In this document: one piece after another, positions 2,060-61,987 of the stretch
Layout of the letters: each line of letters opens with the position of its first letter
Position numbering within the stretch: the first letter of the stretch is position 1
Source of the DNA: Pseudooceanicola algae
GTDB lineage: Bacteria; Pseudomonadota; Alphaproteobacteria; Rhodobacterales; Rhodobacteraceae
Length of the DNA: 64,000 nucleotides
Assembly: GCF_003590145.2 (NCBI RefSeq)
Contig: NZ_CP060436.1
Span: 1,336,001 to 1,400,000, forward strand
Reading direction: 5' to 3'
The notes under the pieces: generated by a model
What the model saw: the letters and a program-made list of their open reading frames with translations, nothing else
What the model was told of the DNA's origin: nothing
The model's database searches: none
Position numbers and translations under genes: made by a program

Positions 2060-2869
2060 TCAGGCTGTGACGGGGGTGAGGCCGACGCGATCCAGCGCCC
2101 CGATCTCGGTCGAGGTCGCGGCTTCGGAAAAGCCGGCGTCCGCGCCGTAGATGTCGCGCGCGACACCGGTGGTCAGCTGCTCGGGCGTGCCGTCAAAGAC
2201 GATGCGACCGTCGCGCATGCCGATCACGCGGTCGCAATAGCGCCGCGCCGTGTCGAGCGTGTGAAGGTTGGCGATGACCATGCGGCCGTCTTCTTCGTGG
2301 ATGCGGCGCAGCGCCTCCATGACGACCTGGGCATTCATCGGATCGAGGCTGGCGATGGGTTCATCGGCCAGGATGATCCGGGGATCCTGCATCAGGGCGC
2401 GGGCAATGGCGACACGCTGCTGCTGGCCCCCCGAAAGCGCCTCGGCCCGCTTGGGTGCATGTTCGGCAATGCCGAGCCGTTCCAGGATGTCGATGGCACG
2501 ATGGATGTCTTCCTGCGGATAGAGATTCAGCAGCGAGGCAAAGGTCGAGCGCCGGTTCAGCGTACCATGCAGTACGTTGCTGACCACATCCATGCGCGGC
2601 ACCAGGTTGAACTGCTGGAAGATCATCGCGCATTGCGCCTGCCAGGCACGCTTTTCGCCGGTCTTGAGGCTGGTGATCTCGCGCCCCTCGAAGTGGATCG
2701 CACCCGAGGTGCTGTCCTCGAGCCGGTTGAGCATACGCAGCAGGGTCGACTTCCCCGCGCCGGAGCGCCCGATGATCCCGATCATCATCGATCGATCGAT
2801 GCTGATCGTGGCATTGTCCACCGCGTTGTTGCGGCCGAAGGTCTTCGTCAGTTGTTCTATCTGAAGCAC
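2060..2869 (-). CDS. phnC: Phosphonate ABC transporter, ATP-binding protein PhnC
   Basis: A 269-residue ATPase that drives the phosphonate importer at the inner face of the membrane. It shows Walker [10 protein letters not shown] (about residues 34-42), the Q-loop region IFQQFNLV, the ABC signature LSGGQQQR, Walker B IILADEP and a switch-histidine region NLHTLD. The frame stays open far upstream, but homology begins at [10 protein letters not shown], so the GTG at 2869 is chosen; a GGGGGA ribosome binding site lies just before it. This gives the normal family length. It is the first gene of phnC-phnD-phnE-phnE. Confidence 0.94.
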
Positions 2870-3311
2870 GCGGCATCCCCCAAGTCCTGTCCGGCGTCGT
2901 AGAAGCGGATCGAGACGAGTCTGTATCGTTTTCTTGAAACATTTGTGACGCGGGGCTCGCATGGCCTGCCCCCCTGCGATCAGGACCGACAGCGCCGGAA
3001 TGCGCGGCAGTGGATATCTGCCGCGCGGTCCCGGCCCGCGGTTCGCAACGCAGTCTCCAAGGTGGGCCGCAAGGTCGCCAAAGGGACGGTCCACCGCAGG
3101 CGCGCGGCTCGGGGACCTCACGTCATATCGCCGTGGATGGACCCAATTTGCCCTATCCCGCCCGGCCCGATTAACAGATCGGCAATGCCTGTTGTCTATT
3201 TCATAAGCCAGATCAGGGCTTCGGGGGGAGCCATCGGCATAAGATCACGCACTGGCAGGGCAACCGGCCAGGGTGCTGTCGCCCCGGGAGTCCCAGAATA
3301 GGGAACCAGGA
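2870..3311. other. Divergent intergenic region between phnC and a histidine kinase gene
   Basis: About 440 bases without a convincing gene. It must carry the promoter of the leftward phn operon and that of the rightward kinase gene. Open frames across it have no start signal or recognisable content. The only candidate element found is the Pho-box-like repeat at 2934-2951. Confidence 0.6.
2934..2951 (-). promoter_or_regulatory. Candidate Pho box upstream of phnC
   Basis: Read on the minus strand this is GCGTCAC-AAAT-GTTTCAA: two 7-mers with an 11-base period, each sharing the TCA core of the PhoB half-site CTGTCAT. It lies about 65 bases upstream of the phnC start. PhoB control of phn operons is well established in other proteobacteria. 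The match is partial (four to five of seven per half-site). Confidence 0.3.
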
Positions 3312-4871
3312 ATGACGCTTGCCTCGTCAACGACAAGTGGAGCCGCGGGTCGCTACCCGCCAGGTGCCCTGCATCAGGGGACGGAAGCCGGTTTTGCGAC
3401 CGCTGTCGCCCTGACACCGGTGCCCTCGCTGCTTGTCGCTCAGGACGGGCAGATCCTGCTGACCAACGCCCCGCTGGAACACTTGTTCGGCTACCCACCA
3501 GAGGCCTTGAACAATGCGCCCCTGGACCAACTTCTGCCCGGCAATATCCGTCAGCGCCATCCTGAGCTGATTCACGCCTTCTGGCGCGATCCGACACCGC
3601 GCAGGTTGGGCCAGGGCCGCGAATTGTTCGGCCGTCGCCTCGACGGCAGCCTGATCCCTCTGGAAATCGGCCTGACCCCGGTCCGGGTGGATGGACAGGC
3701 CCAGGTCTTTGTCACCATCTTCGACATTTCCGCACGGACGATCAGCGAAACCCGGCTGTTGGCCGCGCTCGACGCCTCGGCGGCGGCGATGGTGATGATC
3801 AACGACCAGGGGCGGATCGATCTGGTGAACCGGGCCGCCTGCGACATCTTCGGCCTCGAAGCCGCCGCACTGGCCGGAAGCCAGTTCGACCGCTATGTCG
3901 CCGATTCTGCCCTGCAGGTCTTTTATGCCTGCCGCGAAGCCTTTCTCACCCAATCCCGGCCCATTCGGATGAGCCAGGGACGCGTGATCGCGATCCGCCA
4001 TCCTTCGGGCAAGGAAACGCCGGTCCAGATATCGCTGGCGCCCATCGACGGTGGCACGGACGGCAATGTGATGGTGACGCTTGTGGATATGACCAACCGT
4101 TTGGCCCATGAACGCGAGTTGAAAAGCCGCAATGATTCTCTGGCCGCGCTGAACGATGAATTGCGCCAATTTTCTTATTCGGCCAGTCATGACCTGCGCG
4201 CGCCCCTGGCGACCATCGCCGGGCTCCTTGACCTCTGCCTTGAGGATTTCGACGCCGGTGACGATGTGGAATGCCGCCGCAATATCGCCGAAGCCCTGGC
4301 CACCAGCCACCACAACATTCACAAGGTCGAAGCGGTGCTGACCCTGGCCCGATCCGGGCAGGATCTTGAAAGACCGGAAACATTCGATCTGGCCCAGGCC
4401 ATCCGCAACTGCTGGGAAGACCTGCGTGCCGACCTTGAAGCCGAAGCCGAGGCGGCCGATGCGATCCACCCGACCGAGGAGACGGGCCCGTTTCCGACCT
4501 TCACCTTCACGATCACCGGAGAGGCCGTGGTCCGGACAGATTCCCAGATGCTGATGACCGCCATAGAAAACCTTCTGTCGAATGCCTGGAGGTTTCGGGA
4601 CCGCAAGAAGCGGCACCAATGGGTGACGGTCCGCCTGCGCCTTCATCCGCTGTCCATCGCCGTTTCGGACAACGGCCTGGGCATTGCGGAGGCCGAAATC
4701 CCGCGGGTTTTCGAGCTGTTTCGCCGATCCTCGGGCAGTTCCGGTCATGGGCTTGGCCTTGCGCTGGTCCAGAAACACGTGCGCCGCCTCGGCGGGTCCG
4801 TCGCCGTCAACAGCGGCCCGGACGGAACCAGTTTTATCCTGACTTTCCCAAGTATGGAGACCGTTTCATGA
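3312..4871 (+). CDS. PAS-domain sensor histidine kinase
   Basis: A 519-residue sensor kinase without obvious membrane segments, so probably cytoplasmic. Two PAS domains come first (about residues 33-140 and 150-262; FGYPPEAL and DGSLIPLEIGLTPV are typical PAS stretches). A HisKA domain with the H-box SHDLRAPL (phospho-acceptor His 293) follows, then an ATPase domain with N-box ENLLSNAW, G1 DNGLGI and G2 GHGLGLAL. The frame opens at a GTG at 3273, but the ATG at 3312 has AGGGAACCAGGA before it and precedes the first PAS. It overlaps the receiver gene by ATGA, so the two are probably a cognate pair. The signal is unknown. Confidence 0.9.
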   Translation: MTLASSTTSGAAGRYPPGALHQGTEAGFATAVALTPVPSLLVAQDGQILLTNAPLEHLFGYPPEALNNAPLDQLLPGNIRQRHPELIHAFWRDPTPRRLGQGRELFGRRLDGSLIPLEIGLTPVRVDGQAQVFVTIFDISARTISETRLLAALDASAAAMVMINDQGRIDLVNRAACDIFGLEAAALAGSQFDRYVADSALQVFYACREAFLTQSRPIRMSQGRVIAIRHPSGKETPVQISLAPIDGGTDGNVMVTLVDMTNRLAHERELKSRNDSLAALNDELRQFSYSASHDLRAPLATIAGLLDLCLEDFDAGDDVECRRNIAEALATSHHNIHKVEAVLTLARSGQDLERPETFDLAQAIRNCWEDLRADLEAEAEAADAIHPTEETGPFPTFTFTITGEAVVRTDSQMLMTAIENLLSNAWRFRDRKKRHQWVTVRLRLHPLSIAVSDNGLGIAEAEIPRVFELFRRSSGSSGHGLGLALVQKHVRRLGGSVAVNSGPDGTSFILTFPSMETVS

Positions 4872-52606: not shown

Positions 52607-54016
52607 ATGCTCGAAAGCTTCTCCGCCGAGACCCTGGCGCGAATGCAATTCGCCTTCACCGTTTCGTTCCATATCATCTTTCCCGCCTTTTCAATCGGTC
52701 TGGCCAGCTACCTGGCCGTGCTGAATGCGCTCTGGCTGAAGACCCGGGACGAGACCTATCTGCATCTGTTCACCTATTGGAAAAAAATCTTCGCCATGGC
52801 CTTCGGCATGGGCGTCGTCTCGGGCATCGTGATGTCCTACCAGTTCGGAACCAACTGGGCGGTCTTTTCGGACAAGGCCGGCCCGGTGATCGGCCCATTG
52901 ATGGGATACGAAGTCCTGTCGGCCTTCTTCCTGGAGGCCGGTTTCCTTGGCATCATGCTGTTCGGGCGCAACCGTGTCGGCGATGGCCTGCATATGTTCG
53001 CCACCGCCATGGTGGCGGCGGGCACGCTGTTCTCGGCCACCTGGATCATCGCGGTGAACAGCTGGATGCAGACCCCGCAGGGCCATGGGATCAACGAACT
53101 GGGGCAATTCGTGCCCGAGGACTGGATGGCAATCATCTTCAGCCCCTCCTTCCCCTACCGGCTGGTGCACATGGTGCTGGCGGCCTACCTGACCACCGCG
53201 CTGGTGGTGGGCGGTGTCGGCGCCTGGCACCTGCTGCGCGACCGGCTGGACCCGACGGCGCGGCGGATGTTCTCCATGGCGATGTGGATGATCCTGTTCG
53301 TGGCGCCTCTGCAGATCTTTGCGGGCGACCAGCACGGGCTGAACACCCTGGAACACCAGCCCACCAAGGTCATGGCGATGGAGGGGCATTTCGAAAGCCA
53401 TCCGGATGGCGCCCCGCTGATCCTGTTCGGCTGGCCCGATCAGGAGGCGCAGGAGATGAAATATTCGGTCGAGATTCCCAAGCTGTCGAGCCTGATCCTG
53501 AAGCACTCCTGGGACGCGCCGCTGGACGGGCTGGATACGGTCGCCCGCGAAGATCAGCCGCCCGTGGCAATCGTCTTCTGGTCCTTCCGGGTCATGGTCG
53601 GGCTTGGGTTCTGCTTCCTGGGCCTGGCGATCTGGTCGGTGACGAAACGTGCCATGGGACGGCTTTACGACAGCCCCTGGCTGCAACGGGTGGCGGTGCT
53701 GCTTGGACCGACCGGTTTCATCGCCGTGCTGGCCGGCTGGATCACGACCGAGGTCGGGCGCCAGCCCTTCACGGTCTACGGGCTGCTGCGCACCTCCGAC
53801 AGCCTGTCGCCGGTGCAGGCCCCGGCCGTCGCCGCATCGCTGGCCGGCTTCGCGGTGGTCTATTTCTTCGTCTTCGGGGCGGGCACGATCTATATCCTCG
53901 CGATGATGGCCAAGCCTGCCGCAACCCCCCGCCTTGGTCTGCGCGACGGACCGATCCGTACCGCCGGGCTGACACCCGCGCAGCAAAGCAACCCCGATGC
54001 CCTGCATGATGATTGA
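52607..54016 (+). CDS. cydA: Cytochrome bd-type (cyanide-insensitive) ubiquinol oxidase subunit I
   Basis: A 469-residue membrane protein carrying the hemes of a bd-type quinol oxidase. It begins RMQFAFTVSFHIIFPAFSIG with the axial heme-ligand His, followed by MGVVSGIVMSYQFGTNW and VLSAFFLEAGFLGIMLFG. It is shorter than E. coli CydA and lacks the long Q-loop insert, which places it in the CioA class. It is followed 12 bases on by cydB. No FNR box was seen in the 272 bases upstream. Confidence 0.95.
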   Translation: MLESFSAETLARMQFAFTVSFHIIFPAFSIGLASYLAVLNALWLKTRDETYLHLFTYWKKIFAMAFGMGVVSGIVMSYQFGTNWAVFSDKAGPVIGPLMGYEVLSAFFLEAGFLGIMLFGRNRVGDGLHMFATAMVAAGTLFSATWIIAVNSWMQTPQGHGINELGQFVPEDWMAIIFSPSFPYRLVHMVLAAYLTTALVVGGVGAWHLLRDRLDPTARRMFSMAMWMILFVAPLQIFAGDQHGLNTLEHQPTKVMAMEGHFESHPDGAPLILFGWPDQEAQEMKYSVEIPKLSSLILKHSWDAPLDGLDTVAREDQPPVAIVFWSFRVMVGLGFCFLGLAIWSVTKRAMGRLYDSPWLQRVAVLLGPTGFIAVLAGWITTEVGRQPFTVYGLLRTSDSLSPVQAPAVAASLAGFAVVYFFVFGAGTIYILAMMAKPAATPRLGLRDGPIRTAGLTPAQQSNPDALHDD

Positions 54017-54028
54017 GGAAACAGACCC

Positions 54029-55033
54029 ATGATCTTTGAACTCTCCTTCATCTTCGCCGGGATTATCGCCTTTTCGGTGCTGACCTATGTCGTGCTCGAC
54101 GGCTTCGACCTTGGCCTCGGCATCCTGTTCCCGCTGGCACGGGACCACAAGGAACGCGGCGTCATGATGAATTCCGTCGCCCCGGTCTGGGACGGCAACG
54201 AAACCTGGCTGGTGCTGGGCGGCGGCGGGCTGTTCGCGGTCTTTCCGCTGGCCTATGCGGTGGTCATGCCAGCGCTCTACATGCCGATCATCGTGATGCT
54301 GCTGGCCCTGGTGTTCCGCGGCGTCGGTTTTGAGTATCGTTGGCGGTCAGAGCGTTGGCGCCCCTTCTGGGACATGGCCTTCTTTGGGGGGTCGCTGGTG
54401 GCGACCCTGATGCAGGGCATCTCGCTCGGAGCGCTGGTGCAGGGCATCCAGGTCGAGGGGCGTGCCTATGCGGGCGGCTGGTGGGACTGGCTTTCGCCGT
54501 TTTCCATCGGTACAGGCATCGCGCTGGTGCTGGGCTATGGCCTGCTGGGCGCGACCTGGCTGGTGATGAAGACCGAGGGGCCGCTTCAGGCCCGCATGCG
54601 CGGCCTTGCGATCTGGCTGGGCATCGGTACGCTGCTGGCCATCGGCGCGGTCAGCCTGGCGACGCCTTTCCTGCATCCGCAGTATCTGAGCCGCTGGTTC
54701 ACCTTCCCCGCCGCCTGGTACAGCGCCGCCGTTCCGCTGCTGCTGCTGATCGCGGCCTTCCTGCTGTTCACGGGGCTGCGCCGGGGCAAGGACATCCAAC
54801 CGTTCCTGGCTGCGCAGAGCCTTTTCGTGCTCAGCTTCATCGGCATCGGAATCAGCTTCTATCCCTATATCGTGCCCCCGGACCTGACCATCGCCGCCGC
54901 CGCCGCACCAGATGAAAGCCTGCGCTTCATTCTGGTCGGCACGGTGATCCTGGTGCCGATCATCCTGGGCTATACCGCCTATGCCTATTGGGTGTTCCGC
55001 GGCAAGGTCGATCCCAATGAGGGCTATCACTGA
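54029..55033 (+). CDS. cydB: Cytochrome bd-type (cyanide-insensitive) ubiquinol oxidase subunit II
   Basis: A 334-residue, eight- or nine-helix membrane subunit pairing with CydA. Family features are LTYVVLDGFDLGLGILFPLARD near the N-terminus, PVWDGNETWLVLGGGGLFAVFP and VFRGVGFEYRWR. It is followed by a 35-codon DUF2474-type gene, as usual for the Cio subclass. Together they form an oxidase relatively resistant to cyanide and nitric oxide. Confidence 0.95.
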   Translation: MIFELSFIFAGIIAFSVLTYVVLDGFDLGLGILFPLARDHKERGVMMNSVAPVWDGNETWLVLGGGGLFAVFPLAYAVVMPALYMPIIVMLLALVFRGVGFEYRWRSERWRPFWDMAFFGGSLVATLMQGISLGALVQGIQVEGRAYAGGWWDWLSPFSIGTGIALVLGYGLLGATWLVMKTEGPLQARMRGLAIWLGIGTLLAIGAVSLATPFLHPQYLSRWFTFPAAWYSAAVPLLLLIAAFLLFTGLRRGKDIQPFLAAQSLFVLSFIGIGISFYPYIVPPDLTIAAAAAPDESLRFILVGTVILVPIILGYTAYAYWVFRGKVDPNEGYH

Positions 55034-55100: not shown

Positions 55101-55208
55101 ATGAAAAGCGGGCCAAAACGTCTGCTGTGGTTTGCCGGTCTCTGGCTGATCAGCGTCGCAGCGCTGACAGTCGTGGCTTTGCTGATCCGGATGGCCTTGC
55201 CGACCTAG
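55101..55208 (+). CDS. DUF2474-type small membrane peptide of the bd oxidase (CydX-like)
   Basis: A 35-residue single-span peptide: a basic start (MKSGPKR), then a hydrophobic helix beginning LLWFAGLWLISVAAL and a short end. It lies 67 bases after cydB. DUF2474 peptides accompany Cio-type bd oxidases and are thought to fill the role of CydX in stabilising heme binding. The length and position support it strongly; sequence alone would not. Confidence 0.75.
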   Translation: MKSGPKRLLWFAGLWLISVAALTVVALLIRMALPT

Positions 55209-55240: not shown

Positions 55241-56299
55241 TCAGCCCGCGTTGCGCCCTTCATCGGGGCGCGCGACGGGGTCCGGGTCAAAGAACCTGTG
55301 CTGCGCCCTGCCTGCCTTCTTCGACAGGTAAAGCGCGCGATCCGCATCGGCCAGCATCTGCTCGGCCCGAGGAGGATCGTAGAAGGTCGACAGGGTCGTG
55401 CCCATGGAACAGGAAATCCGGCAGATCCGCCCATCGTATTGCACCGGCACCTCCAGCCGGTCGATCAGGCGGCGCGCGATTTCCTCGATCCGGTGACGTT
55501 TGATCAGGCGCGGGAAGATCAACACGAATTCATCGCCCCCCACCCGCGCCACGATATCGGCCTCGCGGGTTTCGCCGACCATCAGGGCTGCGACATGCTG
55601 CAACACGAAATCCCCGGCGGCATGTCCATGGGAATCGTTGACCTGCTTGAAGTAATCCAGATCCAGATGCGTCAGGGAAAAGCTCTGCCCGCTGCGGATC
55701 AGCCGCGCCAGGACATGATCCATCGCGCGGCGGTTCTTCAACCCGGTCAGCGTATCGGTATAGGCCTGTTCCTCGGCGGCGATCTTGGCGCCCTGCAGGC
55801 GCAGGCCGAGCTTGCGATAGGCCTGGGTCACAGCGGCATTCGCCTCGGCCAGATACAACAGTTCGATCGTCAGGTCGGTCGGGGCAAAATCGCCCGAATG
55901 CAGCGGGTACGTGCGCAGGGCATCGCCAAAAGAAATCCCGAAAGAGGCATTCAGGATCGCGCCGCCATCCTCGACCGGCACAACCAAGCCCTTCAGCGCC
56001 GTACGCGGCGCATCGCGCAACCGCAGCCGCAGTTTTCGCCCCACTTCGGCCAGCAGATCCGGCATCGAGGCGATGGCGCGTCTTTGGGTCAACTCGAACA
56101 TGTCAAGGAAAGCCCGCCCGACGAAGGCCTGATCGGGGCGCAGTTTCTGCATGGTCGGGCCAGCGTGGCAGATCATGCCCGCCGCATCGATGCGCAGATG
56201 CATCGGAAACAGCATGTCCAACGCTTTGGCCGAGAGCTTTGCCGGGTCGGCAGCCTCGGCAAAGGCTCCGGCAGGTGGCAAACGGTCCTGCCCCGTCAT
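55241..56299 (-). CDS. Diguanylate cyclase with N-terminal HNOBA domain
   Basis: A 352-residue signalling enzyme. Residues 28-155 match the H-NOX-associated (HNOBA) PAS-like domain of guanylate cyclases: FPMHLRIDAAGMI at the start and LKGLVVPVEDGGAIL in the middle. A helical linker (155-178) leads to a GGDEF domain with LTGLKNRRAMD, the active-site GGDEF at 254-258 and an inhibitory RxxD site (R245-D248). It should make cyclic di-GMP. Its start overlaps the stop of the H-NOX-like gene by ATGA, so the two are partners. Confidence 0.9.
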   Translation of the reverse strand: MTGQDRLPPAGAFAEAADPAKLSAKALDMLFPMHLRIDAAGMICHAGPTMQKLRPDQAFVGRAFLDMFELTQRRAIASMPDLLAEVGRKLRLRLRDAPRTALKGLVVPVEDGGAILNASFGISFGDALRTYPLHSGDFAPTDLTIELLYLAEANAAVTQAYRKLGLRLQGAKIAAEEQAYTDTLTGLKNRRAMDHVLARLIRSGQSFSLTHLDLDYFKQVNDSHGHAAGDFVLQHVAALMVGETREADIVARVGGDEFVLIFPRLIKRHRIEEIARRLIDRLEVPVQYDGRICRISCSMGTTLSTFYDPPRAEQMLADADRALYLSKKAGRAQHRFFDPDPVARPDEGRNAG

Positions 56300-56883
56300 A
56301 CCGCCCGCGCCCCGAGTTCAAAGGTGCGGCCTTCGGCGAATTCGGTTTCGATCAGGGTGATCTCGATCGCTTCGCCCTCCTGCCCCTCGCCCAGGTGGTC
56401 CAGCATCACCAGCGCGCCGTAGTCATCCGCCATGGCCCGCAGCACCCCGACCAGCACATGCCCCAGCCCCGGCAGCCCGGCGTCGCAGGTCAGCCGGAAC
56501 CGGTTTACCCCCTGCTGACGCAGGTCGAGCCGGGGCAGGTCCAGGTCTGAAACCGCAAGGCGGGTGCGGTCCGGCAGATCCTCGAGCGAGAACAGGAAAT
56601 CCTCGTAGCTGAGCCCGGCAAAGCGCAGCAAGCGACGCAGCCCTTCGTTGTTGGCATGTGACACGAGATAGGTCCCGATATCCTCGAGCAGGCCCTCGGG
56701 CGGGCGGCCAAGGCGGATCGCCGCAGCCGCAAGAACCCGTTGCGTGATATCGTCCTCGTAGGTCAGCATCGCCTCGAAGTCGCCAAACGGCAGATCGGCG
56801 GCCAGCACCACATCGCTCCAGACCGCTTCACCATAGGTGTCGCGCAGGAAGGACTGGATGGATTTGTTGATCAGACCGTGCAT
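56296..56883 (-). CDS. H-NOX-like (HNOB) protein lacking the heme-ligand histidine
   Basis: A 195-residue protein with the H-NOX fold: MHGLINKSIQSFLRDTYG at the start, a helical region (VLAAAAIRLGRPPEGLLEDIG) and RLLRFAGLSYEDFLFSLEDL. In heme-binding members this last segment continues into the proximal His (LDALHDHL-like); here it reads LEDLPDRT, placing Pro 104 where the His should be. The YxSxR motif is also gone (R130, T132, D134 at those positions). It may sense something other than NO or heme. It is the upstream partner of the HNOBA-GGDEF cyclase. Confidence 0.8.
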   Translation of the reverse strand: MHGLINKSIQSFLRDTYGEAVWSDVVLAADLPFGDFEAMLTYEDDITQRVLAAAAIRLGRPPEGLLEDIGTYLVSHANNEGLRRLLRFAGLSYEDFLFSLEDLPDRTRLAVSDLDLPRLDLRQQGVNRFRLTCDAGLPGLGHVLVGVLRAMADDYGALVMLDHLGEGQEGEAIEITLIETEFAEGRTFELGARAV

Positions 56884-60150: not shown

Positions 60151-60438
60151 TCAGGTCCAATGCACCTGTTCGCCGCCCGGCAAACTGGCCCGCGCCTGCA
60201 TCGGCAGGTCATAGCCAAGATTGCCCGCCTCGCAGCAGGCCCGGACCCAGGCATCGTCCATCAGGATGAAATCCAGCACCGCCCCAAGGAATTCAGGGGT
60301 TTGCGCCGCCTGTCGCAGTTCGTCGACGGCCAGGCCACTGGCCCCCAGAAAGACCGGAAGCAGGTCTTCGTTGCCGGCCAGCCAAGTCAGGCAGGACAGG
60401 GCGATTTCTTCGGCGCGGCGCTCGCTCAGCATCATCAT
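60151..60438 (-). CDS. DUF3572 family protein
   Basis: A 95-residue helical protein matching DUF3572: ERRAEEIALSCLTWLAGNEDLLPVFLGASG, then FLGAVLDFILMDDAWVRACCEAGN. It is often found beside pleD-like genes in alphaproteobacteria, as here (divergent from the cyclase at 60551). GGGAG precedes a run of three in-frame ATG codons, so the exact start may be one of three. Function unknown. Confidence 0.85.
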   Translation of the reverse strand: MMMLSERRAEEIALSCLTWLAGNEDLLPVFLGASGLAVDELRQAAQTPEFLGAVLDFILMDDAWVRACCEAGNLGYDLPMQARASLPGGEQVHWT

Positions 60439-60550
60439 CGCAGGGCTCCCACCTTCTTGTGACTTCGGGAAGAAATGGATTCTTAACCAATTTCACCAAT
60501 TTCTAGGTCAAGCAAGCCGCAACCCAGATCAGAAAAAGACCGGGACCGAT

Positions 60551-61987
60551 ATGCCAGGAAGAATTCTAATTGTTGACGACGACGTGTCGCGCCGCATCAC
60601 GCTGGCGGCCCGCTTGTCCGGGGCGTTCTACGACATCCGCATCGCCGGGTCGGATGAAGAGGCCTTTGCCCTGATGCAGCAATGGAAGCCTGGGGTGATC
60701 CTGGTTTCCGACCAGTTGGCCGCGCCGCCGATCCTGTCGTTCCTGCGGATCGTGCGCAAGGATCCCCGCTGCAGTGACACGACGATTTTCGTGGTAACCG
60801 CCGCCTGGGCCCAGGGGGGGCGTGCCGCGCTGCTGGCGGCTGGGGCGGATGATGTCATCCCGCGCAGCGAACCAGAAGAGGTCTTTCATGCCCGTCTGCG
60901 GTCCCATGAGCGCGCGCGCGCCATGATCGAGGCGTTGCAATTGCGCGGCGATGACGGCGATACCCCGCCGCTGCCCGGTTTCTTCGAGGCACCGGCCCAT
61001 TTCCCCGGCCTTATCCCGGTCACCATCGTGCCGCCGGATTCCGCCGCCTCCGCGGAATGGGAAATCGCGCTGTCCGATCAGAAGGCCCTGAGCTTGCGCA
61101 TGGTGCCCGTCGACCGGATCGCCACCCGCAGCAGCGTCGCCGAGGAAATGGACGACAAGCCACGTCTGCTGGTCCTCGGTCTTGCGCCTGGCAATGAACG
61201 CAAGATGCTGCGCGCCATCGCAGAACTGCGGTCACAGCGCAACGCCCCGGAAACCGAGATCCTGCTGATCGCCCCCGATGCCACGCCCGAAACCGTTCGT
61301 CAGGGGTATGACATCGGCGCAAGTTCGGTCATGATCGGCCAATTCGAGCCGGTCGAGGTCATCGCGCGGCTTGGCAATCTGCAACGGCGCATGTCGCGGC
61401 GCAAATGCCTGCGTATGGCGCTGACGGACGGGATGCGCGCCTCGGTGATCGACCCGCTGACCGGGCTCTACAATCGCCGTTTCGCCCTGCCCCGGCTCAG
61501 CCAACTTGCCCAGAACGCGGGGCGCAACGCATCGCCCTATGCCGTCTGCGTGTTGGATATCGACCATTTCAAGACCGTGAATGACCGTTTCGGCCATATC
61601 GTCGGGGACATCGCCTTGCAGAACCTGGCCGGCCTGTTGCGCGACAACCTGCGGCCCTGCGATCTGCTGGCACGGATCGGGGGCGAGGAATTCCTTGTCA
61701 TGCTGCCGGAGACCGGGCCGAATGAATCGCTCTATATCGCCGGGCAATTGTGCGAGACGATCCGCCGGTCCCCGATCCCGATCGGCGAAGGACAGGCGCC
61801 GCTGAACCTGACGATCTCTCTGGGGCTGACCATCGGCCATCGGGGTCAGCGCAGTGCCGAAGAACTGATCGCGGATGCCGACAGCGCGCTTTACTCCGCC
61901 AAGCGCAGCGGGCGCGATCAGGTCGCGCTGCATGCCCGGACCAGCTATCTCTGCAATCCCGGCACCCAGTTGCGTGCCACGTCCTGA
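60551..61987 (+). CDS. pleD: PleD-like diguanylate cyclase with degenerate receiver domains
   Basis: A 478-residue REC-REC-GGDEF protein. The first receiver keeps the acidic pocket (ILIVDDD, D9/D10) but has Ser 53 where PleD has phospho-acceptor D53 (VILVSDQLA) and Arg 105 in place of the conserved Lys. The second receiver (about 204-280) is also degenerate. The GGDEF domain is intact, with DPLTGLYNRR, DIDHFKTVND, GGEEF at 377-381 and an RxxD inhibitory site at 368-371. It should make cyclic di-GMP, but classical phosphorylation control looks lost. Confidence 0.88.
   Translation: MPGRILIVDDDVSRRITLAARLSGAFYDIRIAGSDEEAFALMQQWKPGVILVSDQLAAPPILSFLRIVRKDPRCSDTTIFVVTAAWAQGGRAALLAAGADDVIPRSEPEEVFHARLRSHERARAMIEALQLRGDDGDTPPLPGFFEAPAHFPGLIPVTIVPPDSAASAEWEIALSDQKALSLRMVPVDRIATRSSVAEEMDDKPRLLVLGLAPGNERKMLRAIAELRSQRNAPETEILLIAPDATPETVRQGYDIGASSVMIGQFEPVEVIARLGNLQRRMSRRKCLRMALTDGMRASVIDPLTGLYNRRFALPRLSQLAQNAGRNASPYAVCVLDIDHFKTVNDRFGHIVGDIALQNLAGLLRDNLRPCDLLARIGGEEFLVMLPETGPNESLYIAGQLCETIRRSPIPIGEGQAPLNLTISLGLTIGHRGQRSAEELIADADSALYSAKRSGRDQVALHARTSYLCNPGTQLRATS

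Follow-up and report, generated by a model that had tools for sequence, protein, structure and literature searches.

An H-NOX gene and a diguanylate cyclase gene overlap on the minus strand of the window, the 64,000-nucleotide stretch of the Pseudooceanicola algae genome analysed here. The two genes and their features are as follows.

56296..56883, minus strand: H-NOX-fold protein of 195 residues, of the Group 5 type (without the proximal His)
56674..56676, minus strand: Gly70, a presumed hinge Gly, assigned by position
56623..56637, minus strand: RRLLR (R83, R84, R87), the signature of the derived family described below
56572..56574, minus strand: codon 104 (Pro), aligned with the proximal heme His; the residue lies in helix 93-110 of the predicted model
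56473..56487, minus strand: residues 133-137, aligned with the missing YxSxR motif (here C133, A135 and L137 at the Y, S and R)
56446..56448, minus strand: Gly146, a presumed hinge Gly, assigned by position
56296..56299, minus strand: ATGA overlap of the H-NOX stop and the cyclase start, read from the sequence
55241..56299, minus strand: HNOBA/PAS-GGDEF diguanylate cyclase of 352 residues (Dgc1/DgcA type), an open reading frame whose GGDEF match scores 131 bits
55805..56239, minus strand: HNOBA (PAS-like) input region, residues ~21-165, with a weak Pfam match of its own, below cut-off, and a family-level profile match
55526..55567, minus strand: RxxD site (R245, D248) and GGDEF motif (residues 254-258), placed by a 54-row alignment

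The first-pass annotation of this locus had described an H-NOX fold in which Pro104 occupies the column of the proximal heme ligand and from which YxSxR is gone; sequence and alignment confirmed both statements. The window protein therefore lacks the two sequence marks of canonical heme-based NO sensing, the proximal His and YxSxR. The same annotation had described a translationally coupled cyclase with intact HNOBA input, GGDEF site and RxxD site. Coupling through ATGA and both motifs stood, and the GGDEF-domain residues of the window cyclase are the invariant ones of the 54-row alignment; the input region is present but divergent. Pfam HNOBA is matched by 39 of 54 members of the cyclase family, the window copy by itself falling under the cut-off, and a family profile of the input region matches sGC beta-1 chains and 2p04/2p08. 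By its motifs and the profile of its input domain, the window cyclase can be placed in the HNOBA-GGDEF family and is predicted to synthesise c-di-GMP.

Distribution of the H-NOX/cyclase pair

A protein search found an H-NOX match in 21 of the 22 genomes of the genus, the window's own included, and in 290 of 395 genomes of the family, where at least two of the matches (G025, G281) are of the canonical or basal type. Family loci were taken from ~178 of the 290 matching genomes (the window's own, G013, 46 of 50, 79 of 80, and 51). G047, G077, G274, G337 and G181 were excluded as fragmentary or close to a contig end. The resulting sets, pooled from several searches and non-random, comprised 308 loci, or 286 distinct H-NOX proteins once 22 duplicates were removed by their first 150 residues; one gappy row (L218) was left out of the H-NOX tree.

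A strong cyclase on the same strand accompanied H-NOX proteins of all kinds at 260 of these 286 loci. The other 26 were 24 His-bearing H-NOX proteins and two derived rows, L158 and L166, whose fetched stretches stop ~110 and 140 bases past the H-NOX gene. Three of the 260 cyclase-linked rows (L148, L180 and L181) are basal; removing them gives what we call the derived family (n = 257), and adding them to the 24 His-bearing rows gives a canonical-type set (n = 27). The canonical-type rows came from the window genome's own second copy, two low-scoring matches of the protein search, and the best Pfam matches (30 loci of 238 matching genomes).

The cyclase-linked loci encode GGDEF in 260/260 cases and RxxD in 255/260, and the 4-base ATGA-type overlap of the two genes recurs in 189/260. 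All 19 tested genomes that carry this H-NOX have the HNOBA region. Of 21 tested genomes that lack this H-NOX (20 of the 105 family non-matchers and one from the genus), 20 also lacked the region and the remaining one gave a weak match (E 3.4e-4). Recurrent neighbours within 3 kb at 80 named loci were MTTB (61/80), HAD (52/80) and DUF3572 (38/80). The first-pass interpretation is borne out in part: the cyclase partnership persists although the heme-holding residues have gone, and this describes most of a large clade. Loss of heme itself, and the new ligand or constitutive switch that the annotation proposed, stay hypothetical.

Mutual information between H-NOX and cyclase (257 pairs) reached a maximum of 0.26 between the proteins, versus 0.36 within a protein. 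The highest-ranking pairs between the two proteins involved variable columns, and the signal was treated as noise.

Loss of heme-holding residues and conservation of the protein body

Among the 260 distinct cyclase-linked proteins, of which the window's is one, residue 104 is Pro in 184, His in 20, Ser in 15, Gln in 10, Ala in 9, Arg in 7, Asn in 6, Gly in 4, Glu in 3, and Thr and Asp in one each. In the derived family His104 persists in 17/257 (6.6%); the other 240 members carry ten different residues. YxSxR occurs in 0/257, the 17 with His among them, and its Y, S and R columns have drifted, such that the commonest residue accounts for 157, 55 and 86 of 257. The canonical-type rows, by comparison, have His in 27/27 and YxSxR in 26/27. 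The one exception is the second H-NOX of the window genome (L001/L309), which keeps His and whose motif reads YSSANR, YxSxR with the spacing off by one. L148, L180 and L181, which are cyclase-linked and keep both His and YxSxR, branch before the derived family on a tree rooted on kinase-type rows and look like a heme-binding precursor form.

Other positions are held tightly. Arg occupies positions 83, 84 and 87 together in 254/257 derived members and in 0/27 canonical-type proteins, and E67, D68 and Y155 are similarly family-specific (253, 252 and 255 of 257, versus 0, 0 and 1 of 27). Pro117 is present in 257/257 derived members. The glycines to which we assign a hinge role by position are shared by both sets: Gly70 in 256/257 and 27/27, Gly146 in 257/257 and 27/27. 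By model and alignment, helix 93-110, which bears residue 104, is still conserved despite the loss of the ligand. Candidates for another heme-holding residue include His2 (226/257) and His76 (167/257), and Cys133 stands in the Tyr column in 157/257; no His or Cys column is universal among the 257 derived members, these maxima being 226 for His and 157 for Cys.

Ka/Ks of H-NOX across 55 His-less pairs (identity 80-98.5%, Ks < 2) has a median of 0.073 and a maximum of 0.234, and the cyclase has a median of 0.069. From the H-NOX median we conclude that the gene is maintained by purifying selection and not decaying. Because a residue other than His at 104 marks most of a large clade, a recent defect of the window copy does not account for Pro104. 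The doubt attached to the first-pass annotation, that relatives keep the His and this copy has only lately lost it, did not survive alignment of the homologues, with Pro outnumbering His by 184 to 20. A recent local defect or a decaying gene has next to no probability: it is refuted by the Pro104 count, by Ka/Ks and by the matches, a few of them canonical-type, in 290 of the 395 family genomes, and we found no point in its favour.

Assignment to the Group 5 H-NOX proteins

A fifth, very large cluster of H-NOX proteins, Group 5, appears in a network built from the P. denitrificans protein and published in 2022 (PMC8738867); the review states that the proximal His is found in fewer than 10% of its members and that Pro stands there in most, and raises the question of how such proteins might sense NO or any other signal. 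The absence of the His from P. denitrificans H-NOX, and likewise from that of R. sphaeroides, had been noted by Kumar and Spiro in 2017, citing Iyer 2003 (PMC5588039). In the named record (L310), P. denitrificans H-NOX has Pro104, R83, R84 and R87, lacks YxSxR, has Ala at 133, and is followed by a frame with GGDEF and RxxD; the window protein is 37.9% identical to it (E 1e-25). Since Pro104, the Args of RRLLR and the adjoining cyclase are shared, the window pair is an ordinary Group 5 member, and its H-NOX almost certainly belongs to the published class. Pro for the proximal His in most members and an adjoining GGDEF cyclase are features of Group 5 and of the window pair alike, and species is the sole difference that we find between the window pair and P. 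denitrificans HnoX/DgcA. GGDEF, MTTB and HAD, neighbours in our loci, are also among the neighbour families in a legend of PMC8738867, where the group is unstated. One point differs: PMC8738867 describes Group 5 as having no conserved Cys, and Cys133 occurs in 157/257 of our derived set.

The H-NOX/cyclase oddity is therefore real, old, conserved and already published as Group 5. The loss of His, mostly to Pro, and the question of what is sensed are not new; our analysis adds that YxSxR is missing from 257/257 derived members, that RRLLR marks the family, and that this H-NOX and HNOBA tend to be absent together. The terms H-NOX, HNOX and HNOB do not occur in the main text of PMC9756655, on c-di-GMP genes in five alphaproteobacterial orders.

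Genetic data bearing on function come from P. denitrificans, in which an hnoX mutant is reported to be poor in biofilm and without BapA and a dgcAB mutant to overproduce biofilm; in the authors' view DgcA may be inhibited by H-NOX, and they propose NO as the signal despite the missing His (PMC5588039). Later authors report that c-di-GMP could not be measured in this species (PMC12582929), so the inhibition is a genetic inference.

Related systems and the His104 minority

D. shibae H-NOX is described as a heme NO sensor whose NO-bound form inhibits Dgc1 (PMC7232146, PMC8846402). The D. shibae pair shares its operon arrangement and cyclase family with the window pair, and there H-NOX is an inhibitor of the cyclase. 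Locus L107 (genome G051), which we take to be the D. shibae orthologue, has His104, where the window protein has Pro, and lacks YxSxR; on the concatenated tree it sits in a cluster of 7 members, 5 of them with His. The alpha subunit of soluble guanylate cyclase (sGC) offers a comparison: its H-NOX domain lacks the heme His and persists next to HNOBA in a structural or regulatory role. Profile A1 gives a weak match to an sGC alpha-1 chain (E 9.8e-4). The likeness to sGC alpha is one of working and not of membership, as the window H-NOX is a separate polypeptide and the output is GGDEF, not guanylate cyclase. The second H-NOX of the window genome, of the canonical, histidine-kinase type, has the same HNOB fold as the window protein but retains His. 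It lies on a 202-kb contig (C2) and is followed by a hybrid histidine kinase with HisKA, HATPase, REC and Hpt domains (both within 4194-6558 of L309); the opposite strand carries a gene for a receiver-SpoIIE protein at 2568-3758.

Tips with His104 are scattered over the tree as a minority state. Exchange between His and non-His required a minimum of 15 changes on the combined H-NOX and cyclase tree, 13 on the cyclase tree and 16 on the H-NOX tree; these counts, from FastTree trees with many weak nodes, do not distinguish gain from loss. A strong cytochrome d1 (NirS-type) match was found in 9 of 16 genomes with His104 versus 11 of 50 without (Fisher p 0.014), where strong means E < 1e-90, a threshold of our own choice that leaves weaker matches uncounted, and where the 50 genomes were hand-picked, mostly from high-similarity rows. 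A link between His104 and NO production was unsupported under phylogenetic control, the independent pairs being few (2, or 9 on starred branches) and the median p being 1. We treat the association with cytochrome d1 as a lead only.

A proposed heme-free brake on the cyclase

Our best overall explanation, to which we give a probability of about 0.42, is that the H-NOX is heme-free and serves as a dedicated regulatory partner that brakes the HNOBA-GGDEF cyclase of its operon. In this scheme the H-NOX would dock on the HNOBA/PAS domain with its two-lobed body and the helix that binds partners, and would be locked in a conformation resembling that of an ordinary H-NOX when NO is bound and the protein inhibits. 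In H-NOX proteins NO breaks the Fe-His bond; a protein with no proximal His has no such bond to break, and we propose that the inhibiting-like conformation would for that reason be permanent. Synthesis of c-di-GMP would then be braked, with a strength set by the amount of protein and the state of the partner, and not by NO on heme. The components of this explanation are of unequal strength. The window H-NOX very probably does not sense NO through a His-ligated heme, and we lean toward its restraining this cyclase; that the brake works without a small-molecule ligand is a tentative suggestion. Besides the residue losses, conservation, coupling and co-occurrence given above, the explanation is favoured by the separate His-bearing H-NOX of the window genome, with a histidine kinase next to it, and by the lack there of a cytochrome d1 (NirS family) match and of any NirK match above the cut-off.

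Published contacts and motions offer a framework for such docking and locking: H-NOX is described as meeting its kinase via helices A-C and F (PMC7108781), and its activation as a rotation about two Gly hinges (PMC8738867). We compared the predicted model with known structures, counting Z differences below 1 as ties. Against human sGC beta1, the NO-activated forms scored 22.0 (8hbh) and 21.3 (6jt2) and the inactive or unliganded forms 20.7 (8hbe) and 20.0 (6jt0). Manduca sGC gave a tie (active 6pat 16.8, inactive 6pas 16.7), as did the Fe(II) and NO forms of S. oneidensis H-NOX (19.6 and 19.2). The slightly closer match of the model to NO-activated human sGC beta1 may be a weak hint toward an inhibitory-like state. 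A His-to-Gly S. oneidensis H-NOX (2kil, H103G) has reportedly served to imitate the inhibitory state, and a permanent brake arising from a natural His-to-Pro change would, by analogy, fit the P. denitrificans genetics.

Alternative explanations

The main rival to the brake holds that a non-heme ligand (a metabolite, nucleotide or lipid) or the redox state of Cys133 replaced heme as the input that switches the effect on the cyclase; we consider this possible, though on the unlikely side. The three Args found in 254/257 derived and 0/27 canonical-type proteins, the family-specific E67, D68 and Y155 and the retained presumed Gly hinges all speak for a ligand, and near-invariant Args in a body that is strongly conserved throughout are as compatible with a bound ligand as with a brake. 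Such a ligand is so far hypothetical, and the conserved residues could equally form a partner interface or the fold core. Redox input draws on Cys133 and on a heme-free V. cholerae H-NOX reported to respond to oxidants (PMC7108781), but Cys133 is not universal and is Ala in P. denitrificans. It would be a long shot that RRLLR receives an anion (a nucleotide or c-di-GMP) in place of heme, so that the former NO sensor would respond to a metabolite or to the product of its cyclase, with NO control kept or regained in scattered His104 lineages, D. shibae among them.

Retention of heme, held loosely or through another residue, would make this H-NOX an NO sensor after all, which we judge improbable. 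His2, His76 and the invariant Pro117 can be cited for it, as can the NO control reported in D. shibae, where the presumed copy has His104 without YxSxR. The P. denitrificans protein, too, is treated in print as an NO sensor (PMC5588039). Against these stand the loss of the proximal His from 240/257 and of YxSxR from 257/257 derived members, the lack of any His column above 226/257 or Cys column above 157/257, and the window genome itself, in which searches for two NO sources found no cytochrome d1 (NirS family) and nothing above the NirK cut-off. A purely structural or stabilising subunit, which the cyclase needs in order to fold or act and which senses nothing, would suit the translational coupling by overlap and the agreement of H-NOX and HNOBA presence or absence in 39 of 40 genomes tested, the fortieth being a weak match. 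We find it quite improbable, because the hnoX and dgcAB mutants of P. denitrificans have opposite biofilm phenotypes (PMC5588039), whereas loss of a required activator should resemble loss of the cyclase.

Genomic setting and implications

Across the window genome, four matches to GGDEF and three to EAL were found. Two of the GGDEF proteins lack EAL, and both are encoded in the window, inside a stretch of 7 kb. Since H-NOX is common in the family and its partner here is one of these two proteins, the pair bears on c-di-GMP control, and its input or fixed state matters for that control in a major marine group. For most of these proteins, the label of NO sensor that their domain name suggests is probably incorrect. 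With the same partner, His104 in the presumed D. shibae copy and Pro104 in P. denitrificans and the window provide a natural contrast by which the published question can be tested.

The other GGDEF protein without EAL, a receiver-GGDEF protein (60221-61987, plus strand), lies 3.3 kb from the H-NOX gene, and a DUF3572 gene (60151-60438, minus strand) is located at its start. On the other side of the pair, a 35-residue open reading frame (55101-55208, plus strand) that matches Pfam DUF2474 (36.8 bits) and is easily missed in annotation directly follows the cytochrome bd oxidase genes (52607-55033).
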